Shown piece after piece: positions 8,577 through 17,756 of a stretch of 34,261 nt of DNA. The DNA lies in contig NZ_JAQTYM010000022.1 in NCBI RefSeq assembly GCF_028688295.1, positions 1 through 34,261 on the forward strand, in the 5' to 3' direction. The stretch's first letter is position 1, and each line of letters opens with the position of its first letter. Under the pieces are notes generated by a model. The model saw nothing but the letters and a program-made list of their open reading frames with translations. It had not been told where the DNA came from and searched no databases. This DNA comes from Sulfuricurvum sp. GTDB lineage: Bacteria > Campylobacterota > Campylobacteria > Campylobacterales > Sulfurimonadaceae. The position numbers and the translations under genes were made by a program.

Positions 8577-10316
8577 TTAGCGTTTTGCTAAACGCGCTTG
8601 CAAGGCATCCAAATCAGTAAGCATTTCATCGTCTAATTTAATGATAGATACCGTTATATTAATTCCTACCTCTTTGAGCCAGTGGGCGTAGAGATCCCCA
8701 ATTTGCGGTACTTTATCATCTTTACGGAAGATGATAAAATCATCCCCTTGAAACCGAATAATTGGGAGGTGAGGAAAATAGTCTTGAAGTGTTTGCGCGT
8801 AATGTTTGAGAAGATCATCCCCTTTATCCCAGCCGTACGATTTATTAAACTGTCCGATATTACCTAAATTGACTAGCCATAATTGCTGATATTGGTCAAA
8901 ATCAGGCTCGAAAAAGAGAAAATTGAGATAGGCAGAGGTATAGACCCCGGTTAACGAATCTTTATAAAAATAAGAGAATCGCTCCATCTCCATAGGGGTT
9001 GTAGGGCGTTGGGAGTGAGGAATTTCTAACGAGATGTTGGATAGTGCTACTAAAGCCGCGTCGATCACGTCAGCACGGAATTTGATCCCTCTGAGAGATT
9101 TTAACTCTTCTAATGCTTCTGAGAGGGATTTACGCCCTTTATAGATACGGTTAGTCGTCATGGCATCGACACAATCAGCGACTGCCATGATTTGAGAGAG
9201 AAGCGGTATCGCATCACCGGAAATTTTATTAGGGTATCCGCTCCCATCGAGACGTTCATGGTGATATCGGATGATTTCGGCGATGGAGGCAAAGATATCT
9301 ACCCGTTTTAAAAGGGCATAACCTGCATTTACATGCTCTTCGATTAAAGCCCGTTCTACAGGTTCTAAAGGACCTGGTTTTAGCAAAATAGAATCAGGAA
9401 TAGCCACCTTTCCGATATCATGCAAAGCCCCCGCACGGTAGAGTTCTTCTTGTATCTGGTGTTGAAGCCCCATTTTTTTCGCGATTAGTCGTGAATATTC
9501 ACCGACACGCTGACCATGTCCGGCGGTGTAGTTATCACGCTGTTCGATGAGCGAGACGAGAGAGAAGAGATTTTGTTCGTATAAATCGATTTTTTCTTGG
9601 ATTCTGTGAACGGATGAGCGGTATCCCCATCGAAAACTTAATAGCCCTAGAACCCATACCAACAGGAATATACTGATGGTTGTAATTAATCCTTTTAAAA
9701 AAACATCATCGTATCGATCCATTGTAAGCGAGATGGTAAGTGCACCTCGAATATCCCCTATCTTATACCCTTGATCTCCATGGCATTTCATACATTCGGA
9801 TTTTATAAAAAATGGGGTCATGTAGCTTAGATACTCTTTATCATCGATTGTGCGAAACTCATAGACATCTTCTTTTGTTCTTGCCAGAGTTTGAAGTGAT
9901 CTTTGTTCCCAAGTGTCAGGTGCATTTTTAGGATTGATGAATTTGTCGCTAGAGAGGTGGCTCGTGATACCGTAAAGTACGCTGTATTGTTCGGTAATTT
10001 GACGCAATGCATAGGCGGGATTAATCAGAGTGAGTTGGATTCCGGATGTTGTGTTTAGATCACGATTTGGGATTTTGAGATAAGGGTTAGGTTGAGTCTC
10101 TTTAGAGATAGGGACATAAACACCGCCGTGGGTGGCGACCCATTTACGATAAGCGATGTCTTTATTGATACTAATTTTGGCTTCGAGAAGGGCTAAATCT
10201 TGGATCTGTTCGTATTTTTGATAGGTGAGATAGAGGACTATCAGTGCAATAAAGAGTGTCCAGACAACACTGATAATGGTGAAGATGTTGAAAAGCTGTT
10301 TTCTATCGGTACGCAT
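8577..10316 (-). CDS. Membrane HD-GYP phosphodiesterase with c-haem sensor and degenerate GGDEF
   Basis: The 579-residue protein has a membrane helix at about 11-31 and a second near 209-229, with a periplasmic sensor between them. The sensor resembles DUF3365/Tll0287-like domains and carries one c-type haem motif, Cys175-x-x-Cys178-His179 (CMKCH). The HD-GYP domain follows: HGQR at 267-270, HD at 299-300 in ALHDIGK, HHERLDGSGYP at 352-362. All its hallmark residues are present, so it should hydrolyse c-di-GMP. A C-terminal GGDEF-like segment begins at KDSLTG (452-457), but the signature is QGDDF (523-527) and the domain looks short, so cyclase activity is doubtful. ATG 10316 is preferred to the upstream GTG/TTG codons because AAAGG is 5 bases away. 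It lies 45 bases after dnaJ and may be co-transcribed. Confidence 0.9.
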   Translation of the reverse strand: MRTDRKQLFNIFTIISVVWTLFIALIVLYLTYQKYEQIQDLALLEAKISINKDIAYRKWVATHGGVYVPISKETQPNPYLKIPNRDLNTTSGIQLTLINPAYALRQITEQYSVLYGITSHLSSDKFINPKNAPDTWEQRSLQTLARTKEDVYEFRTIDDKEYLSYMTPFFIKSECMKCHGDQGYKIGDIRGALTISLTMDRYDDVFLKGLITTISIFLLVWVLGLLSFRWGYRSSVHRIQEKIDLYEQNLFSLVSLIEQRDNYTAGHGQRVGEYSRLIAKKMGLQHQIQEELYRAGALHDIGKVAIPDSILLKPGPLEPVERALIEEHVNAGYALLKRVDIFASIAEIIRYHHERLDGSGYPNKISGDAIPLLSQIMAVADCVDAMTTNRIYKGRKSLSEALEELKSLRGIKFRADVIDAALVALSNISLEIPHSQRPTTPMEMERFSYFYKDSLTGVYTSAYLNFLFFEPDFDQYQQLWLVNLGNIGQFNKSYGWDKGDDLLKHYAQTLQDYFPHLPIIRFQGDDFIIFRKDDKVPQIGDLYAHWLKEVGINITVSIIKLDDEMLTDLDALQARLAKR

Positions 10317-10361
10317 CAACACCTTTCGGAGGAGACTATTATTATTTATAATACCGCCAGT

Positions 10362-11477
10362 TTATTTAAACCAACCTTTCACTTTTTCAAAGGTTGATTC
10401 GAAAAGTGATTCATGCGGTTTGGATTCGATCCCAAAACTCTCTTGGAGTTTTTGGAGTAACTCTTCTTGCGCTGTATTGAGACGGTTAGGGTAGGTGAGG
10501 TGGATTTGGGCGATCAAATCTCCTTTGCCACGTCCGTGAACATCCGCTACCCCTTCGCCACGGAAGCGGTACTGTTGGCCATCTTTCGTACCTGTTTCGA
10601 GTTCCAGTGTAATTTCGCCGTTAAGGGATGGTATCGTGATATCCTCTCCGAGAACTGCTTGGGTGAAAAACACCGGAACTTCGAGATAAATATCATTACC
10701 GTTACGGATAAAGTGGCTGTCCTCTTCAACTTCGAACGTCACATACATATCGCCACGTACACCGCTTTTGCCTGTGTTACCGCGTCCCGAAACGCGTAGA
10801 CGGTTTCCGGTGTCGATCCCTGCTGGGATTTTGATCGTGACGCTCTCTTTGGTCTCTGTGTAGCTTTTACCTTTACAATCACCGCATTTCTCACTCGCCA
10901 TCGTCCCCTCACCGTGACACGCAGGACACGTTTGGGAGAAGGTCATGAACCCTTGGCGAACGTAGACTTGCCCTTTGCCACCGCATTGACTACAGCTGGT
11001 TACTTTGCCGTCTTTGGCACCCGTACCTTTACAGGTTTTGCACGAATTTTTTGTGGTAAATGTCACCTCTTTTTCGCATCCGAAAACCGCCTCTTTGAAG
11101 CTCACACGCATCTCCACACCCATATCGAGCGGGAATTTATCCGTTGCCGCACGTGATTGTTTTCGACCACCTCCGGCAAATCCGTTGAACATCTCTTCGA
11201 AAATAGAGCCTAAATCATCAAAACCACCGCTTTGACGTCGTCCACCGCCCCCTTGAAGCCCCTCTTTACCGTAACGGTCATAGCGTGCACGTTGTTGATC
11301 GTCACTGAGGACTTGGTACGCTTCATTGCAGAGTTTGAACTTATGCTCGGCACTCTCATCATCCGGATTACGGTCAGGATGATAGAGTTTCGCCATTTTG
11401 CGATACGCTTTTTTGATCTCATCACCATTCGCATTTTTAGTGACTTCTAAAATTTCATAATAACTCAAATTTTCCAC
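10362..11477 (-). CDS. dnaJ: Chaperone DnaJ (Hsp40)
   Basis: The 371-residue protein is a type I Hsp40, the co-chaperone that stimulates DnaK ATPase and delivers unfolded clients. The J domain carries HPD at 33-35, followed by a Gly/Phe-rich linker (about 74-104). Four zinc-finger cysteine pairs follow: CKTC (146-149), CSQC (162-165), CPAC (184-187), CGDC (198-201). The last repeat ends KGKS instead of KGxG, a mild deviation that keeps the cysteines. The frame runs 15 codons further upstream, but GTG at 11477 is the likely start: it gives the normal [12 protein letters not shown]-terminus and has GGAG 7 bases upstream. No HrcA-type CIRCE element is visible upstream. Confidence 0.96.
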
Positions 11478-11507
11478 GAATTGACTCCGAAAACATATTT
11501 TCGCGCA

Positions 11508-11516
11508 ATTATACCA
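11508..11516 (-). promoter_or_regulatory. Extended -10 promoter of dnaJ
   Basis: On the minus strand this reads TGGTATAAT, a perfect -10 box with the TGn extension. It places the transcript start about 20-25 bases upstream of the dnaJ GTG. It lies inside the longer open frame, supporting the shorter DnaJ start. Confidence 0.6.
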
Positions 11517-11703
11517 TGTCAAAAAGAGTGTTAGCTTAATTGAGTCATACAGACTAAAGATGAATATCTATATCTAACAAGTGGAGTAAAATTTTAATAG
11601 CTTTAAAATGAAACATTTAGCCTCATTTGCATAGAATGTAAAATATTAAATAGTTACGTGTTTAATAGAGAAACAAAAATTAGATGTAAAACAGAGAAAT
11701 ATA

Positions 11704-14700
11704 ATGACAATTATCAATGAACTAAAACGACGAAGTGAAAATACATCAGATGATGTAAAAATTGAATTAAAACTTTACACGCTTGCAGATGATTTAGAAA
11801 AAAAAGCCAGAGCACATCTCAAACGAATCACTAATATACTTCCCGAATTTGATATTCATGATGAAAAACATAGCGAAAAAGTAATTTTTAATATCGAACA
11901 GTTATTAGGCACTAAAAAGCTCAAAGAATTATCTTCTTATGAGCTATTTTTTCTATATTTAGCTTCTTATTTTCATGATGCGGCTATGGCTCCTTCAGAT
12001 TGGGAAATATACACTTTAAATCTTACGGAAGGTTCTGATAAATTTAGTTCGTTTGGACATTCTATTAAACATGATTTAAAGACACCATTGAAACTATCGT
12101 TAGCAATTGAATTAATAAAAGAAAAAAAAGAGATTCTCTACTCTAAATTTGAAGGCGATGTAAAAGATTGGTTATTTAGCCCGAAGCAAGAAAACACACT
12201 TATTGATTACTTAGCTACACTACTTATTGATTACCAAAGTTTTAGAAATGGTTTTACAGATAAAATTAAGAAGATTGAAAATCAAAAAGACTTTGATGAT
12301 TTGAATGAATATATCCGAATTGATTACATCAGAGCAACCCATCATATCAGAATAGAAGCGTATATTAAAAATTTAGAAGCATCATTTGGCAATGCATTCG
12401 AACAGCCTGCTTGGGGAAAAAAGCTAGCGCAAGATTTAGCATTAATTTGTAGATCACATGGAGAAGATGCCAGTTTTATTAATCAGTTTAATGCTAATGC
12501 ACAATATTATGGTTCTGAGAGTGCCAATTTACAATTTATTGCCATTTTGCTTAGATTAGGAGATATTATCCACTTTAGTTTCGATAGAGCACCTTTTGAT
12601 TTGCGTTCTTCTCGATTATTCAAATCCGAATATAGTTTTCAAGAATGGGCTGTAAAAAATAGTGGCGTAAATTATACTATTGAAAACGGTGAGATATCTT
12701 TTAGAGCATATTGTGAAACACCGGAAACTTATTTTAAATTGCATCAATATATAAAATGGATTGAGTATGAAATACAAAATTATTTTATTTTTCAAAGACA
12801 ATGGGATAAAAAGTATATAGAAAACCTAAAAGACAAAGTTGATACAAGAAACATAGCAAATGACACAGAAAAATTTCTGCCCCAACTAGGGTTGAGTTTC
12901 TCTTTAAATCAAAATAAAATCATTGAGTTGTTGATGGGAGTTGGACTGTATAAGGATAAATTTGCTTGTCTAAGAGAACTCTATCAAAATTCGTTAGATG
13001 CCTGCCGTTGTGCTTTATCAGAAGATAAAATAACTGATAGAACATCTAAAGGATTAATTGAATTTTCCCTGATTCAAGAGGAGGATGACATTTATTTATC
13101 TTGCTTAGATAATGGGATTGGAATGTCTAAAGATATTATTGAAAGATATTTACTCAAAATAGGTAATTCCTATTATAAATCATCTGATTTCTACAAACAA
13201 CAAGCTCTTTGGGGAGGCAATTTTACTCCAACATCTCAATTTGGCATAGGTATTCTATCCTGCTTTATGATTGGAACTAAAATAGAAATTACTTCTAAAA
13301 TGAGAGACAACGATTATGTTTCCTGCTCAATAAATGGACCGCATGAAAACTTTTACTATAAAAGTACAACAGAACTTGAAAAAGAAAAACTTCCTTTTTC
13401 TGGTACTTTGATAAAGATACTTTTAAATGATGAAACAAAACAGAATTTATTCAATAGTGAAATCAATAAATTAGGACTCGTATTGTTTGATAAACCAAAC
13501 CGATTTTCAGACAATTTTGAAAAATATCAATCATACTATAAAAATTGGAAACACCATTTATATAATAAGATAAATGGATTTGTTCACGTAATACCAAATG
13601 AGATTGAAGTCAATATTGTTTTGGCAAACAATCAAAAAAAATCAATAATGTCTAAACCGATTGTACTTGATTTGAATGATGATAGATTAGATATTGATGA
13701 AGATGATTTAGATTTTATCCATTATGTAGATAACTATAGACGAAGAACTCCTTTAAAAGAAAAATATAGTGAAACAAAAGAATATGTTGAAACATATATC
13801 ATTGCAATTAATTATAGTACATTGGAATATAAAACAACACTAACTTTACCTAAAAAGAATTTCAATTTTCAAGAGTTAGAAAGCCTATATACTGTCCCAG
13901 TGATAAGTAGCACTGGAGTGTGCATTGATGGAATTTATATAAATCACAGTCATTCAGTGGGTTCTGATAATGATTACACTCAAACACTAATACATAGTGG
14001 TGTTATGAATTTTACAGGCGAATTAAGACCACAATTATCTGTTGATAGAACTCAGATAGTAAATTATCCAAATGAATGTGAAGTTTTAGCTAAGGGATTA
14101 ACTGAGTTATTAGTTAAAGAGATTTTAAATATTACAAAAAAGCATATTAATACTTACGAAATAATAGATGATACATTAAGCCTTGCATGGGAATATGTAT
14201 TTGATAAAATTAATTTTGCTGATACATATTTCATCAATGAATTATCATTAACCGATTATGGAGATATACTTTGGGAAGGTTTAGCAAATACTATCAAGCA
14301 AAAAATATCAATTCGAGATTTCTTGTTAGCAGAAAAAATAGAAATTAATAACTTTAACTATTCTAATCTTGATATTTTGAGTCAAAAGCTAGTTTTAACT
14401 AAATTAATTAGTTCAAATAAAATTGAAGTGAGTGATGATGCTATATTATTAGAATCTCATGCTTTGTTAACTACAGATTTAATCAGGAAAGGAAGGTCTC
14501 CTTCTGAGGATGATATAGTAATATCTTCGGACAAATGGACTGGAACTATTACTGAATATGACATCATTTCCAATCTATATCCGCTTGTACCTAACAGACT
14601 ATTCTCTATCATTAACCATGAAAGAACTCAAGAAATTAATACTAGAATCAAACGTTTGCATTCTTATAGCAATGGCATAACTGCTTTTTTCAAGCAGAGC

Positions 14701-15135
14701 CCTTTGTTAATTAAAGAAAATTTAGGATTATATGATGTTGAACATGGTAGTTTCGGAAAAAAGAAAAGTAAAATCAATGCTTTCGATAGAAAACGAACAG
14801 ATTTTTGGCTTTTTGAATTAAATGAACGAAATTATGAAAATGAAAATAAAGATAGGTATGTTTTAGTTGTTTTTATTTCATCTCAAGAATTAACAACAGA
14901 AGAAGAATCCGACTTACAAAAAATTAAAGATACTGATCCATCATATTTTAAAGGTATTAAGGAAGGGTGGAGTTTACTTGTTACTGGAATGAAAAAAGAA
15001 AATATTGTCATTATTCCTGGTAAGAGCACTAGAAAAGAATTAGTAGATAAATTATCAGATTCATTTTGGGAAGAATATAAAGAATATTGTTTTAAATTTA
15101 CAGATGGAACTGCAATGACGAAAGCTATGGAATGA
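11704..15135 (+). CDS. HD-domain / HSP90-like GHKL ATPase fusion protein
   Basis: This 1143-residue protein has no assigned name that I recognise. Residues 1-300 form an HD-type metal phosphohydrolase: His52 (IHDEKHSEKV), His91-Asp92 (YFHDAAM), histidines at 213-214 and 252, and Asp287 (RLGDIIHF). Residues about 395-560 form a GHKL ATPase closest to HSP90/HtpG: Glu425, Asn429, Asp432 in RELYQNSLDAC, CLDNGIGMS at 467-475, and SQFGIGILSCFMIG at 511-524. A later GELRPQLSVDR near 772 sits where HSP90 has its middle-domain arginine loop. The C-terminal third is unassigned. No signal peptide or membrane segment is seen. The DNA is much more AT-rich than dnaJ or recR, suggesting transfer. A conflict or defence role is inferred from architecture and neighbours only. 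The start has only a weak AGAG site. Confidence 0.8.
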   Translation: MTIINELKRRSENTSDDVKIELKLYTLADDLEKKARAHLKRITNILPEFDIHDEKHSEKVIFNIEQLLGTKKLKELSSYELFFLYLASYFHDAAMAPSDWEIYTLNLTEGSDKFSSFGHSIKHDLKTPLKLSLAIELIKEKKEILYSKFEGDVKDWLFSPKQENTLIDYLATLLIDYQSFRNGFTDKIKKIENQKDFDDLNEYIRIDYIRATHHIRIEAYIKNLEASFGNAFEQPAWGKKLAQDLALICRSHGEDASFINQFNANAQYYGSESANLQFIAILLRLGDIIHFSFDRAPFDLRSSRLFKSEYSFQEWAVKNSGVNYTIENGEISFRAYCETPETYFKLHQYIKWIEYEIQNYFIFQRQWDKKYIENLKDKVDTRNIANDTEKFLPQLGLSFSLNQNKIIELLMGVGLYKDKFACLRELYQNSLDACRCALSEDKITDRTSKGLIEFSLIQEEDDIYLSCLDNGIGMSKDIIERYLLKIGNSYYKSSDFYKQQALWGGNFTPTSQFGIGILSCFMIGTKIEITSKMRDNDYVSCSINGPHENFYYKSTTELEKEKLPFSGTLIKILLNDETKQNLFNSEINKLGLVLFDKPNRFSDNFEKYQSYYKNWKHHLYNKINGFVHVIPNEIEVNIVLANNQKKSIMSKPIVLDLNDDRLDIDEDDLDFIHYVDNYRRRTPLKEKYSETKEYVETYIIAINYSTLEYKTTLTLPKKNFNFQELESLYTVPVISSTGVCIDGIYINHSHSVGSDNDYTQTLIHSGVMNFTGELRPQLSVDRTQIVNYPNECEVLAKGLTELLVKEILNITKKHINTYEIIDDTLSLAWEYVFDKINFADTYFINELSLTDYGDILWEGLANTIKQKISIRDFLLAEKIEINNFNYSNLDILSQKLVLTKLISSNKIEVSDDAILLESHALLTTDLIRKGRSPSEDDIVISSDKWTGTITEYDIISNLYPLVPNRLFSIINHERTQEINTRIKRLHSYSNGITAFFKQSPLLIKENLGLYDVEHGSFGKKKSKINAFDRKRTDFWLFELNERNYENENKDRYVLVVFISSQELTTEEESDLQKIKDTDPSYFKGIKEGWSLLVTGMKKENIVIIPGKSTRKELVDKLSDSFWEEYKEYCFKFTDGTAMTKAME

Positions 15136-15209: not shown

Positions 15210-16211
15210 ATGGAAGAAGAAAGTAATATTATCATCTACAACACCGCAGACGGCAAAGCCTCTGTTTCGCTCCTTACGAAAGATGGAACGGCATGGCTAA
15301 ATCAAAATCAACTTGCTGAACTTTTTGCAACCTCTAAACCGAATATCAGTATGCATATATCCAATATATTTGAAGAGGGTGAGCTTGAGAAAGATTCAGT
15401 TGTTAAGGATTACTTAACAACTGCCGCTGACGGCAAAAATTACTCCGTATCTCATTACTCTCTTGAAATGATTTTGGCTATTGGATTTCGGGTGCGAAGC
15501 AAACGGGGAACACAATTTCGACAATGGGCAGGTAAAAATCTAAGCGAGTATATGATCAAAGGCTTCGTGATGGATGATGAACGGCTCAAAAATCCTGACG
15601 GAAAACCAGACTATTTCGATGAACTTTTGGCACGTATCCGAGATATACGAGCTTCGGAAAAACGGTTCTATCAAAAAGTTAGAGACCTTTTTATGATTAG
15701 TCGTGATTATGATGCCAGCGACAAAGCGACACAACTGTTTTACGCTGATGCTCAAAATAAACTCTTATTTGCCATTACGGGGCAAACTGCCGCCGAAATT
15801 ATCGTCAGTCGAGCGAATGCATCAGAAGAGAATATGGCACTTACCAGTTTCAACGGTTCCATAGTCCGTAAGCAAGACATTTATACCGCAAAAAATTATC
15901 TTACAGAGGATGAAATTGATAGTTTGAACCGTTTTGTTGTGGTCTTTCTCGAAACCGCAGAACTCCGAGCAAAAAACCGTCAAGACGTGACGATGGATTT
16001 TTGGCGGGAAAATATTGACCGTATTATCGAATTCAACGACAAAGAAGTACTCAAAGGGTATGGAAGTATCGGACATGAACAGATGAAAAAAATGGTTGAA
16101 AAAGTCTATGAGACATTCGATGCAAAACGCAAAGCTATTGAGGCTGTTGAAGCTGATGAACAAGACCTTGCCGAATTGAAACAGATTGAAGAGAAAGTAA
16201 AATCGCGATGA
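15210..16211 (+). CDS. RhuM-family protein
   Basis: The 333-residue product matches the Virulence_RhuM family (COG3943), named after a gene in Salmonella pathogenicity island 3 and still without a settled biochemical function. The N-terminal half has the family pattern IIIYNTADGKASVSL, then a helix-turn-helix-like WLNQNQLAELFATSKPNISM, then SHYSLEMILAIGFRVRSKRGTQFRQWA. The C-terminal half is helical, ending in a charged coiled-coil-like tail. RhuM genes are common in mobile and toxin-antitoxin-rich regions. AAAGGGA upstream of the ATG is a good ribosome binding site. The stop codon overlaps the next start (ATGA), so the two are translated as a pair. Confidence 0.88.
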   Translation: MEEESNIIIYNTADGKASVSLLTKDGTAWLNQNQLAELFATSKPNISMHISNIFEEGELEKDSVVKDYLTTAADGKNYSVSHYSLEMILAIGFRVRSKRGTQFRQWAGKNLSEYMIKGFVMDDERLKNPDGKPDYFDELLARIRDIRASEKRFYQKVRDLFMISRDYDASDKATQLFYADAQNKLLFAITGQTAAEIIVSRANASEENMALTSFNGSIVRKQDIYTAKNYLTEDEIDSLNRFVVVFLETAELRAKNRQDVTMDFWRENIDRIIEFNDKEVLKGYGSIGHEQMKKMVEKVYETFDAKRKAIEAVEADEQDLAELKQIEEKVKSR

Positions 16212-16432
16212 GCATCCAATCTGAAACAATCCTCGAAGCACTAAAAAAAGTTCAAGGTGCTGAAATCCTCCTCTCGATCACGCAGGGGCTCGATGATGTA
16301 AAACAAGGTAAAGTTTCCCCTATCGAATCTCTGTGGGATGAGTTGAAGAGTACCTATTCCAAAACCGAAAAAGAGAGTATCAACGATCAGGAACTTATCG
16401 AGATTCTCAAAGAGACTATGGATAAGCAATAA
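16208..16432 (+). CDS. Small antitoxin-like protein overlapping RhuM gene
   Basis: A 74-residue acidic protein starts at the ATGA overlap with the RhuM stop codon. I do not recognise a family with confidence. The segment LLSITQGLDDVKQGKVSPIESL resembles the short helical tails of several type II antitoxins, where an acidic helix is followed by a G-K/R-V-S-P/S motif. The tight overlap suggests the two proteins are made together and may interact. No DNA-binding domain is apparent in so short a protein. A promoter for the next gene follows at 16483, so this two-gene unit seems to end here. Confidence 0.65.
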   Translation: MSIQSETILEALKKVQGAEILLSITQGLDDVKQGKVSPIESLWDELKSTYSKTEKESINDQELIEILKETMDKQ

Positions 16433-16488: not shown

Positions 16489-16521
16489 CTTTCAAAATAA
16501 AGTGGTTTGATAGGGGTTTTT

Positions 16522-16815
16522 ATGACGAAAACGTTTATATTAGACTTTTTAGCACAACATAAAAATGATTTTTCTCAAAAATACGGTGTTACAAAAATAG
16601 GGCTTTTTGGAAGCTATGCCCGTGAAGATTTCAAAGATGGCAGTGATATTGATATTGCGATAGAGATGCAAAACGATAAAAAAAGTTTAAACACATTTTT
16701 TTCTTTAAAAAGAGAGCTTGAGGCAGCATTTAATCTAAAAGTTGATCTTGGAATAGAGAGCTCTCTCAAAGCTATTGCAAAAGAAAAAATCATGAAAGAG
16801 ATAGTCTACGTCTAA
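16522..16815 (+). CDS. MNT-domain nucleotidyltransferase, MntA-like antitoxin
   Basis: The 97-residue protein is a minimal nucleotidyltransferase. The active site reads GSYAREDFKDGSDID, with Gly30-Ser31 and the metal-binding Asp42 and Asp44; a third acidic residue is in KVDLG near residue 77. In characterised MntA-HepT systems this enzyme adds AMP units to a tyrosine next to the toxin's catalytic histidine and so neutralises it. The ATG at 16522 is chosen over TTG 16507 because AGGGG sits 5 bases upstream. The 3' end overlaps the HEPN frame by 8 bases (ACGTCTAA). It is similar to the other MNT gene at 33478, with GS and DxD at the same residue numbers. Confidence 0.9.
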   Translation: MTKTFILDFLAQHKNDFSQKYGVTKIGLFGSYAREDFKDGSDIDIAIEMQNDKKSLNTFFSLKRELEAAFNLKVDLGIESSLKAIAKEKIMKEIVYV

Positions 16816-17152
16816 AAGAGGCGAGCTTCTCTTTTTACAAGATATTTTGGATTCGACGGAAGCTATATTCGAATTCACAAACGGGCTTAGTGTGGATGAA
16901 TTTTCTATCAATAGACTCGTGTATAGTGCCACCATTCGAGAATTTGAGATTATAGGTGAAGCGACCATTCACCTCTCGGATGAAACACTAGCCAAATATG
17001 ACCAAATTGTATGGAGAGATTTAAAAGATTTTAGAAATCTTTTGATTCACGAATATTTTGGGGTAGACAGTCAAATAGTTTATAATACAATCAAAAATGA
17101 TTTACCTCTTTTAAAAAATGTTGTATTAAAAATGATAGAAGATTATTCTTAA
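16808..17152 (+). CDS. HEPN (HepT/DUF86) RNase toxin with abnormal ACG start position
   Basis: The frame encodes a HEPN toxin, an RNase paired with the MNT antitoxin. The catalytic Rx4HxY motif is intact: RNLLIHEY, with Arg, His and Tyr at residues 76, 81 and 83 if counted from 16808. The usual EIIGEA helix is also present. There is no ATG, GTG or TTG at the expected start. Where HepT genes begin, overlapping the antitoxin stop, the codon is ACG (16808), followed by a normal HepT beginning SKRGELLFLQDILDSTEAI. The first standard start is TTG 16847, which would drop 13 residues of the first helix. Either a rare ACG or the TTG is used, or the toxin is poorly translated. About 114 residues from ACG, 101 from TTG. 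Confidence 0.8.
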   Translation, partial: TSKRGELLFLQDILDSTEAIFEFTNGLSVDEFSINRLVYSATIREFEIIGEATIHLSDETLAKYDQIVWRDLKDFRNLLIHEYFGVDSQIVYNTIKNDLPLLKNVVLKMIEDYS

Positions 17153-17174
17153 ACCGATAAGGAACATCCTTTGC

Positions 17175-17186: not shown

Positions 17187-17756
17187 ATGAAACGTTCCCT
17201 AGAGAAATTTAACCGCCTCGTCGATGCTCTCCAACAGCTCCCTGCTATCGGGCAAAAGTCTGCCACCCGATTAGCGTACCACATGGTGATGCATGATAGT
17301 TTCGGTGCACTCAAACTCGCCCATGCTATCGAAAATGCGATTACTAGCCTCAAAAAATGCCGATCCTGCGGTGGTCTGAGCGAAGATGAACTTTGCTCGA
17401 TTTGCAGTGATGAGCGACGCAATCACGAAATCCTCTGTATCGTTGAAAATGCCAAAGATATTTTGACGTTTGAAGAGAACGCTCTTTTTGATGGCCGTTA
17501 TTTCGTCCTAGAAGCCATCGAAGAACTCGATATTTCTCATCTGCGCGGTATTATCAAAAGCGGGATTAAAGAGGTGATTTTTGCTCTCACTCCCTCCATC
17601 GCGAATCAGGGGGTAATGCTCTATATCGAGGATAAACTAATCGATTGCGATGTCAGGTTCAGCCGTATCGCACAGGGTGTTCCGACGGGGGTGAGTTTGG
17701 AGAACGTCGATATCCTCTCGCTGAGTAAAGCGATGGAAGATCGGGTGAGTATCTAG
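17187..17756 (+). CDS. recR: Recombination mediator RecR
   Basis: The 189-residue protein is RecR, a toroidal DNA clamp that helps load RecA at gaps. It contains the N-terminal helix-hairpin-helix (LPAIGQKSATRLAYHM at 18-33), the four-cysteine zinc site C58, C61, C70, C73, and a Toprim domain starting at EILCIVENAKDI (81-92). The C-terminal RIAQGVPTGVSLENVD is the conserved end region. The Toprim domain departs from the proteobacterial standard (YFVLEAIEELD, LTPSIANQG), as is usual for the Campylobacterota. Length is slightly under the common 198-200. The gene marks the right border of the accessory island and has its own promoter. Confidence 0.95.
   Translation: MKRSLEKFNRLVDALQQLPAIGQKSATRLAYHMVMHDSFGALKLAHAIENAITSLKKCRSCGGLSEDELCSICSDERRNHEILCIVENAKDILTFEENALFDGRYFVLEAIEELDISHLRGIIKSGIKEVIFALTPSIANQGVMLYIEDKLIDCDVRFSRIAQGVPTGVSLENVDILSLSKAMEDRVSI

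Follow-up and report, generated by a model that had tools for sequence, protein, structure and literature searches.

The closest described counterpart of the protein analysed here is VcSduA (GHKL-Shedu, paraMORC3) of Vibrio cholerae, likewise a single-gene system with a GHKL ATPase and one catalytic effector. Both parts are needed for its defence, which was lost with the ATPase mutant E27A as well as with the nuclease mutant K557A (PMC12137116). The HtpG/HSP90 chaperones, the HD nucleotidases of the SAMHD1/dGTPase type and the Pfam family HD-CE (PF24391) are the other relevant groups. The latter is a domain family only and tells nothing of a clamp or a trigger. According to PMC9122126, antiviral systems have a hotspot at the gpA-gpQ locus, which carries old and tin in P2.

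The window, i.e. the whole stretch of DNA that was analysed, comprised 34,261 nt of Sulfuricurvum sp. (assembly GCF_028688295.1, contig NZ_JAQTYM010000022.1, positions 1-34,261 of the forward strand). The gene under study was confirmed to be a single intact and uninterrupted ORF of 1143 residues at 11704-15135, as read in an earlier note made from the letters alone. The probability of an open frame of 1143 codons arising by chance at the gene's G+C was about 1e-42. The fusion of an HD domain and an HSP90-type ATPase in one protein, claimed in the same note, agreed with the Pfam and NCBIfam profile matches. The host genome holds one copy of this HD-CE-HSP90 gene and a separate HtpG of its own. 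The features of the gene were as follows.

11704..15135, + strand: coding sequence, 1143 aa, with HD-CE domain, HSP90-type ATPase and fast-evolving middle and C-terminal regions
11839..12780, + strand: HD-CE phosphohydrolase domain, residues 46-359, with metal-site candidates H52, H91, D92, H213, H252 and D287 (Pfam match, invariance, AF2 model)
12895..13467, + strand: HSP90-type GHKL ATPase, residues 398-588, with E425, N429, D432, DNGIGM 469-474 and QFGIGILS 512-519 (profiles, PDB, invariance)
13468..14193, + strand: HSP90 middle-domain-like region, about residues 589-830 (Foldseek of the full model; borders approximate)
14017..14049, + strand: GELRPQLSVDR, residues 772-782, aligned to the HSP90 middle-domain loop with the catalytic Arg (forced global HMM-HMM alignment)
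14194..15132, + strand: C-terminal region, residues 831-1143, fastest evolving, candidate recognition region (dN/dS 0.26)

In VcSduA the ATPase is N-terminal and the effector is a C-terminal DUF4263 nuclease, whereas here the HD domain is N-terminal and the HSP90-type ATPase lies in the middle. Membership in Shedu was rejected because the DUF4263 PD-(D/E)XK nuclease was absent from the Pfam scan of the protein. No family of PADLOC-DB 2.0.0 matched it at E values up to 1.

Residues 46-359 matched HD-CE over the whole profile (positions 1-263 of 263) with an E value of 6.6e-42 and a score of 144.5 bits, the cut-off being 27. In an alignment of eight sequences, the window protein and seven full-length homologues 42-56% identical to it (Bacteroidota 51-56%, Moritella 42%), all the HD residues listed in the earlier note, His52, His91-Asp92, His252 and Asp287, were invariant. 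His56, Arg210 and His213, which that note had overlooked, were invariant as well. HD-CE is also fused to an HSP90-like ATPase in 14 divergent relatives, and the invariant columns of their alignment were mostly those of the two active sites; in the HD part these were H, HD, RxxH, H and D, corresponding to H52, H91-D92, R210xxH213, H252 and D287. With the extra invariant His213, the metal-site set reads H-HD-H-H-D. The additional histidine gives the site a binuclear-type look, and such HD sites occur in Cas3-type nucleases and in phosphodiesterases. The HD superfamily residues are common to the window protein and the SAMHD1/dGTPase nucleotidases, from which it differs by the conserved His213. 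Identity with dGTPase or SAMHD1 was rejected, as the profile scans resulted in no dGTPase family match and the fold search in no significant one.

The AF2 model of the HD domain alone had a pLDDT of 85.7 and a pTM of 0.88, and by this model the domain is likely folded. The PDB fold search with the model gave no significant match; the top non-significant ones were cyclic-nucleotide phosphodiesterases, and exopolyphosphatase, dGTPase and SAMHD1 ranked after them. Nor did the HD region match any PDB sequence in a profile search. Since the model is good but lacks a significant PDB match, the substrate cannot be read off from it. The term nucleotidase, used in the earlier note, is unproven; the binuclear-type site would equally fit a predicted nuclease or phosphodiesterase.

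The ATPase region, residues 398-588, was covered by NCBIfam HSP90 models with an E value of 4e-18 and matched HATPase_c_3 with 1.5e-6, above the cut-off of that model. It also matched HSP90 N-domains in PDB, and in the HMM-HMM comparison with 14 HtpG sequences residues 403-588 matched with a probability of 98.2%. Glu425, Asn429, Asp432, Asp469, Gly471-Met474 and Gln512-Gly516 were invariant among the eight homologues, and the 14 divergent relatives shared the E, Q-N, D, DxGxG and FGIG motifs. The GHKL residues reported earlier (Glu425/Asn429/Asp432, DNGIGM, QFGIGILS) were intact and invariant in the former set, and their core was found in the distant one. The scores against the HtpG/HSP90 equivalog models were 65.2 of 455 and 54.7 of 371 bits, the latter for HtpG, and missed the cut-offs. 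Membership in HtpG was rejected, as the protein scored far under the curated cut-offs. Judged by these profiles, the ATPase is HSP90-like, not HtpG.

The structure models were single-chain predictions, and the full-length AF2 model was poor (pLDDT 64.8, pTM 0.45). The best Foldseek matches of this full-length model (pTM 0.45) were HSP90 chains with E values of about 1e-12. Many of them spanned about 450-490 columns of the poor model, i.e. beyond the N domain. The GELRPQLSVDR segment was present as noted earlier; its alignment to the loop of the HSP90 catalytic arginine had been missed. Arg782 of this segment falls on HtpG Arg343 in the catalytic loop PLNVSRE, only in a forced global HMM-HMM alignment. 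By profile and fold the protein resembles the HtpG/HSP90 chaperones in the ATP-binding domain and possibly in the catalytic arginine loop of the middle domain. It differs from them by the extra HD domain and the fast-evolving middle region, and no HSP90 C-terminal dimerisation domain was recognised in it. Residues 831-1143 gave no family match above cut-off in Pfam and NCBIfam.

The closest orthologue, 75.2% identical to the window protein, was used for the determination of evolutionary rates. The HD and ATPase parts of this pair were 86-87% identical with a dN/dS of 0.08, whereas the middle and C-terminal regions were 63-64% identical with dN/dS values of 0.22-0.26, the C-terminal region having 0.26. 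Purifying selection was strongest on the HD and ATPase parts and weaker on the middle and C-terminal regions. The contrast in identity between slow and faster parts was repeated in six other pairs. In pairs of HtpG, unlike the HD-CE-HSP90 protein, the middle domain was about as conserved as the N domain. The rate pattern fits conserved enzyme modules combined with a changing recognition surface, although relaxed constraint would look similar.

The gene is located on an AT-rich island of about 5.6 kb between dnaJ and recR.

10362..11522, - strand: dnaJ, left flank of the insertion site, present in relatives with 77-97% identity
11559..17160, no strand: inserted island between dnaJ and recR (borders from empty sites of close relatives)
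15210..16211, + strand: RhuM-family protein, PADLOC candidate PDC-S05 (PF13310, E 4.6e-107)
16208..16432, + strand: small RelN-antitoxin-like ORF, weak (NF050107, E 2e-4, under cut-off)
16507..16815, + strand: MntA-like nucleotidyltransferase, antitoxin (PF01909, E 1.6e-14; NF047752, E 7e-13, under cut-off)
16847..17152, + strand: HepT-like RNase toxin (PF01934, E 3e-25)
17187..17756, + strand: recR, right flank of the insertion site

Homology with the relatives having empty sites stopped at 11558 on the left and, for four of the five, restarted on the right at about 17158-17168 (twice at 17161), while in the fifth, L150, the local alignment continued to 17124. The G+C content of the gene was 0.290, more than three standard deviations lower than that of windows of the same length elsewhere (0.414 +/- 0.036), in line with the AT-rich DNA described earlier. 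The closest orthologue has a G+C of 0.305 in a neighbourhood of 0.575. The toxin-antitoxin-like neighbours of the earlier note were recovered by profile matches to RhuM, RelN-like, MntA-like and HepT-like proteins. No evident integrase or structural phage gene was present in the island. The HepT-like frame (16816-17152) is open upstream of its first TTG and has no usual start codon there, the start being lost or unusual. Outside the island, a protein at 8577-10322 that by eye resembles a sensor with HD-GYP and GGDEF-like parts lies beside dnaJ; it is unrelated and adjoins dnaJ in several relatives too.

In 23 of the 28 other genomes of the genus holding recR, dnaJ abuts recR with no insert. 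The other five carried different inserts (loci L178-L182): a gene for an OLD-like AAA ATPase together with one further gene, a Phd/RelE pair, a RhuM gene alone (its product 96% identical to that of the window), a WYL regulator with a PD-(D/E)XK nuclease, and one insert with secreted-type proteins and a rotamase. Toxin-antitoxin or defence-like cargo was carried by four of these five. Within the genus, the junction of dnaJ and recR is therefore a hotspot where varying inserts are found, with conflict-type genes in most occupied cases.

Full-length orthologues were found in 2 of 121 genomes of the family and in 2 of 395 genomes of a Bacteroidota class. The HD-CE domain was detected in 9 of 397 genomes of the phylum and, as strong matches, in 10 of 395 genomes of the Moritella order. 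The orthologues are rare and scattered, and their position is not conserved. The horizontal transfer suggested previously is well supported by the empty site, the G+C content and this sparse distribution across phyla.

Fifteen HD-CE-HSP90 relatives were encoded on IMG/VR contigs. In two P2-like prophages (L103 and L135), the relative stands exactly between the replication gene A and the portal gene Q, i.e. in the gpA-gpQ hotspot of old, tin and other systems, whereas the window copy is chromosomal and lies between dnaJ and recR. The two prophage proteins are 59% identical to each other. Their HD regions share just 20-23% identity with that of the window protein, so their context transfers to it only loosely. 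No orthologue of the window type was found in the viral contigs, the P2-borne relative had no DNA match in complete E. coli genomes, the search of phage records with the window protein gave HSP90-domain fragments only, and no match to the window protein was present in PHROGs.

On plasmids, the neighbours of relatives included Shedu and a type I R-M system (A. butzleri), a type I R-M system (Priestia), recombinases, an integrase and AbiEii (Hymenobacter), and an ATPase-UvrD pair with an integrase (Pantoea); from its annotation we read the Pantoea pair as of the Gabija type. The A. butzleri relative (L039:11671-14492) is annotated as two consecutive ORFs split in the ATPase region and may be broken. 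The plasmid and P2-hotspot relatives belong to diverged families, and their function need not transfer. Two Bacteroidota genomes have the same SMC-like three-gene operon flanking the HD-CE-HSP90 gene, on opposite sides (L107:10524-14809 and L108:3363-7666). Two small protein families adjoin HD-CE-HSP90 genes in three loci each, the first having a weak resemblance to ADP-ribosyltransferases (ART).

L049:11703-12299, L050:8757-9365 and L039:14489-15070 (A. butzleri plasmid): shared ART-like small protein
L105:5379-5867, L106:8191-8664 and L009:15472-16026: shared small membrane protein family

In Moritella (L009:9992-18999), two HD-CE-HSP90 proteins are encoded at a distance of about 3 kb, and they belong to different subfamilies. 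One solo HD-CE gene (327 aa) was observed at L051:5994-10634, where its companions are an ORC-CDC6-like ATPase (PF24389), a DNA methyltransferase and a protein with weak likeness to HFX_2341; the setting is an apparent mobile element and possibly a separate multi-gene HD-CE system. In Bacteroidota, orthologues of the window gene are for the most part single genes surrounded by ordinary ones; the neighbours of the window gene and its orthologues differ, and no common partner was seen. When 140 proteins neighbouring 28 HD-CE loci were set against 140 proteins at 20 control loci of the same genomes in a crude PADLOC comparison, 160 and 120 families were matched, respectively, with no clear enrichment; these counts are inflated by single proteins matching many models, and no enrichment is claimed. 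The neighbourhood survey of homologues proposed in the earlier note turned up prophages, plasmids and the hotspot on the one hand, and PADLOC counts not clearly enriched and many orthologues among ordinary genes on the other.

Taken together, we see about an even chance that the protein is a conflict protein that works as a single gene and has spread horizontally, most likely a predicted anti-phage defence with a clamp-gated HD effector. The conflict or defence role had been proposed earlier; the context of the relatives and the pattern of slow enzyme and fast recognition parts speak for it, and the crude neighbour test does not. A possible but unlikely variant is that the HD domain is a nuclease: the clamp would load on phage DNA or nucleoprotein, and the HD domain would cut it directly as in restriction, with no nucleotide depletion. 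The invariant binuclear-type set agrees with such an activity, and VcSduA, in which a GHKL ATPase is joined to a nuclease, spares the cell (PMC12137116), but the protein matched no DNA-binding domain or nuclease family in Pfam and NCBIfam, and phosphodiesterases of cyclic nucleotides were the best, though non-significant, fold matches. It is rather improbable that the HD domain is a regulator erasing a nucleotide signal while a separate protein is the killing effector. Some distant subfamilies do have an adjacent shared small gene, ART-like or membrane, in three loci each, but the window gene and its orthologues, with their differing neighbours, showed no such common partner.

Little probability is given to a specialised HSP90-type chaperone or stress protein that carries an HD domain and has no defence role. 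The true HSP90 N-domain, the middle-like region and the occurrence of most orthologues as single genes among housekeeping genes are in its favour; against it are the HtpG that the host already has, the sparse distribution with no conserved position, and the relatives carried by prophages and plasmids. Those same mobile relatives, along with the toxin-antitoxin genes in the window island, would suit a selfish or inter-element weapon, for instance one by which a prophage or plasmid achieves superinfection exclusion, anti-defence or addiction. We regard this as quite improbable: neither an integrase nor a structural phage gene is evident in the island, and superinfection exclusion is defence under another name.

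For the defence protein with a clamp-gated HD effector, the following mechanism is proposed. Both active sites are present and conserved in one chain, which is under purifying selection and encoded on an acquired insert. The protein would dimerise into a clamp of the HSP90 kind, and a phage product may be bound by its fast-evolving middle and C-terminal regions. ATP-driven closure, involving Glu425 and Arg782, would put the HD domains into the active state, and these would hydrolyse nucleotides, cyclic nucleotides or oligonucleotides, or nucleic acid, so that phage growth is stopped. The gating of the HD domain by the ATPase, assumed already in the earlier note, is a reasonable proposal, for which VcSduA is an experimentally tested analogue. 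More tentatively, and with more doubt than confidence, the HSP90-family clamp may be an intracellular immune sensor, with the phage product as its 'client' and an ATPase cycle that switches on the HD hydrolase, so that the infected cell dies or is arrested or the phage nucleic acid is destroyed.

The effector had been called undescribed. HD-CE is already named in Pfam; the literature search resulted in no experimental work on HD-CE and no source paper, two related eLife papers do not mention it, and PADLOC has no model. The new element is a GHKL-gated, single-gene putative defence in which the effector is an HD domain and the clamp is of HSP90 type. Should this hold, a fold familiar from protein folding, that of HSP90, would in bacteria also have the task of sensing phages, with client recognition coupled to the effector within one polypeptide. 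Next to VcSduA it would be a second case of immunity gated by a GHKL ATPase, with another enzyme as effector and in an experimentally simple form, as a one-gene system is easy to test in a laboratory strain. The finding would also give a function to HD-CE, for which no tested one was found in the literature searched.
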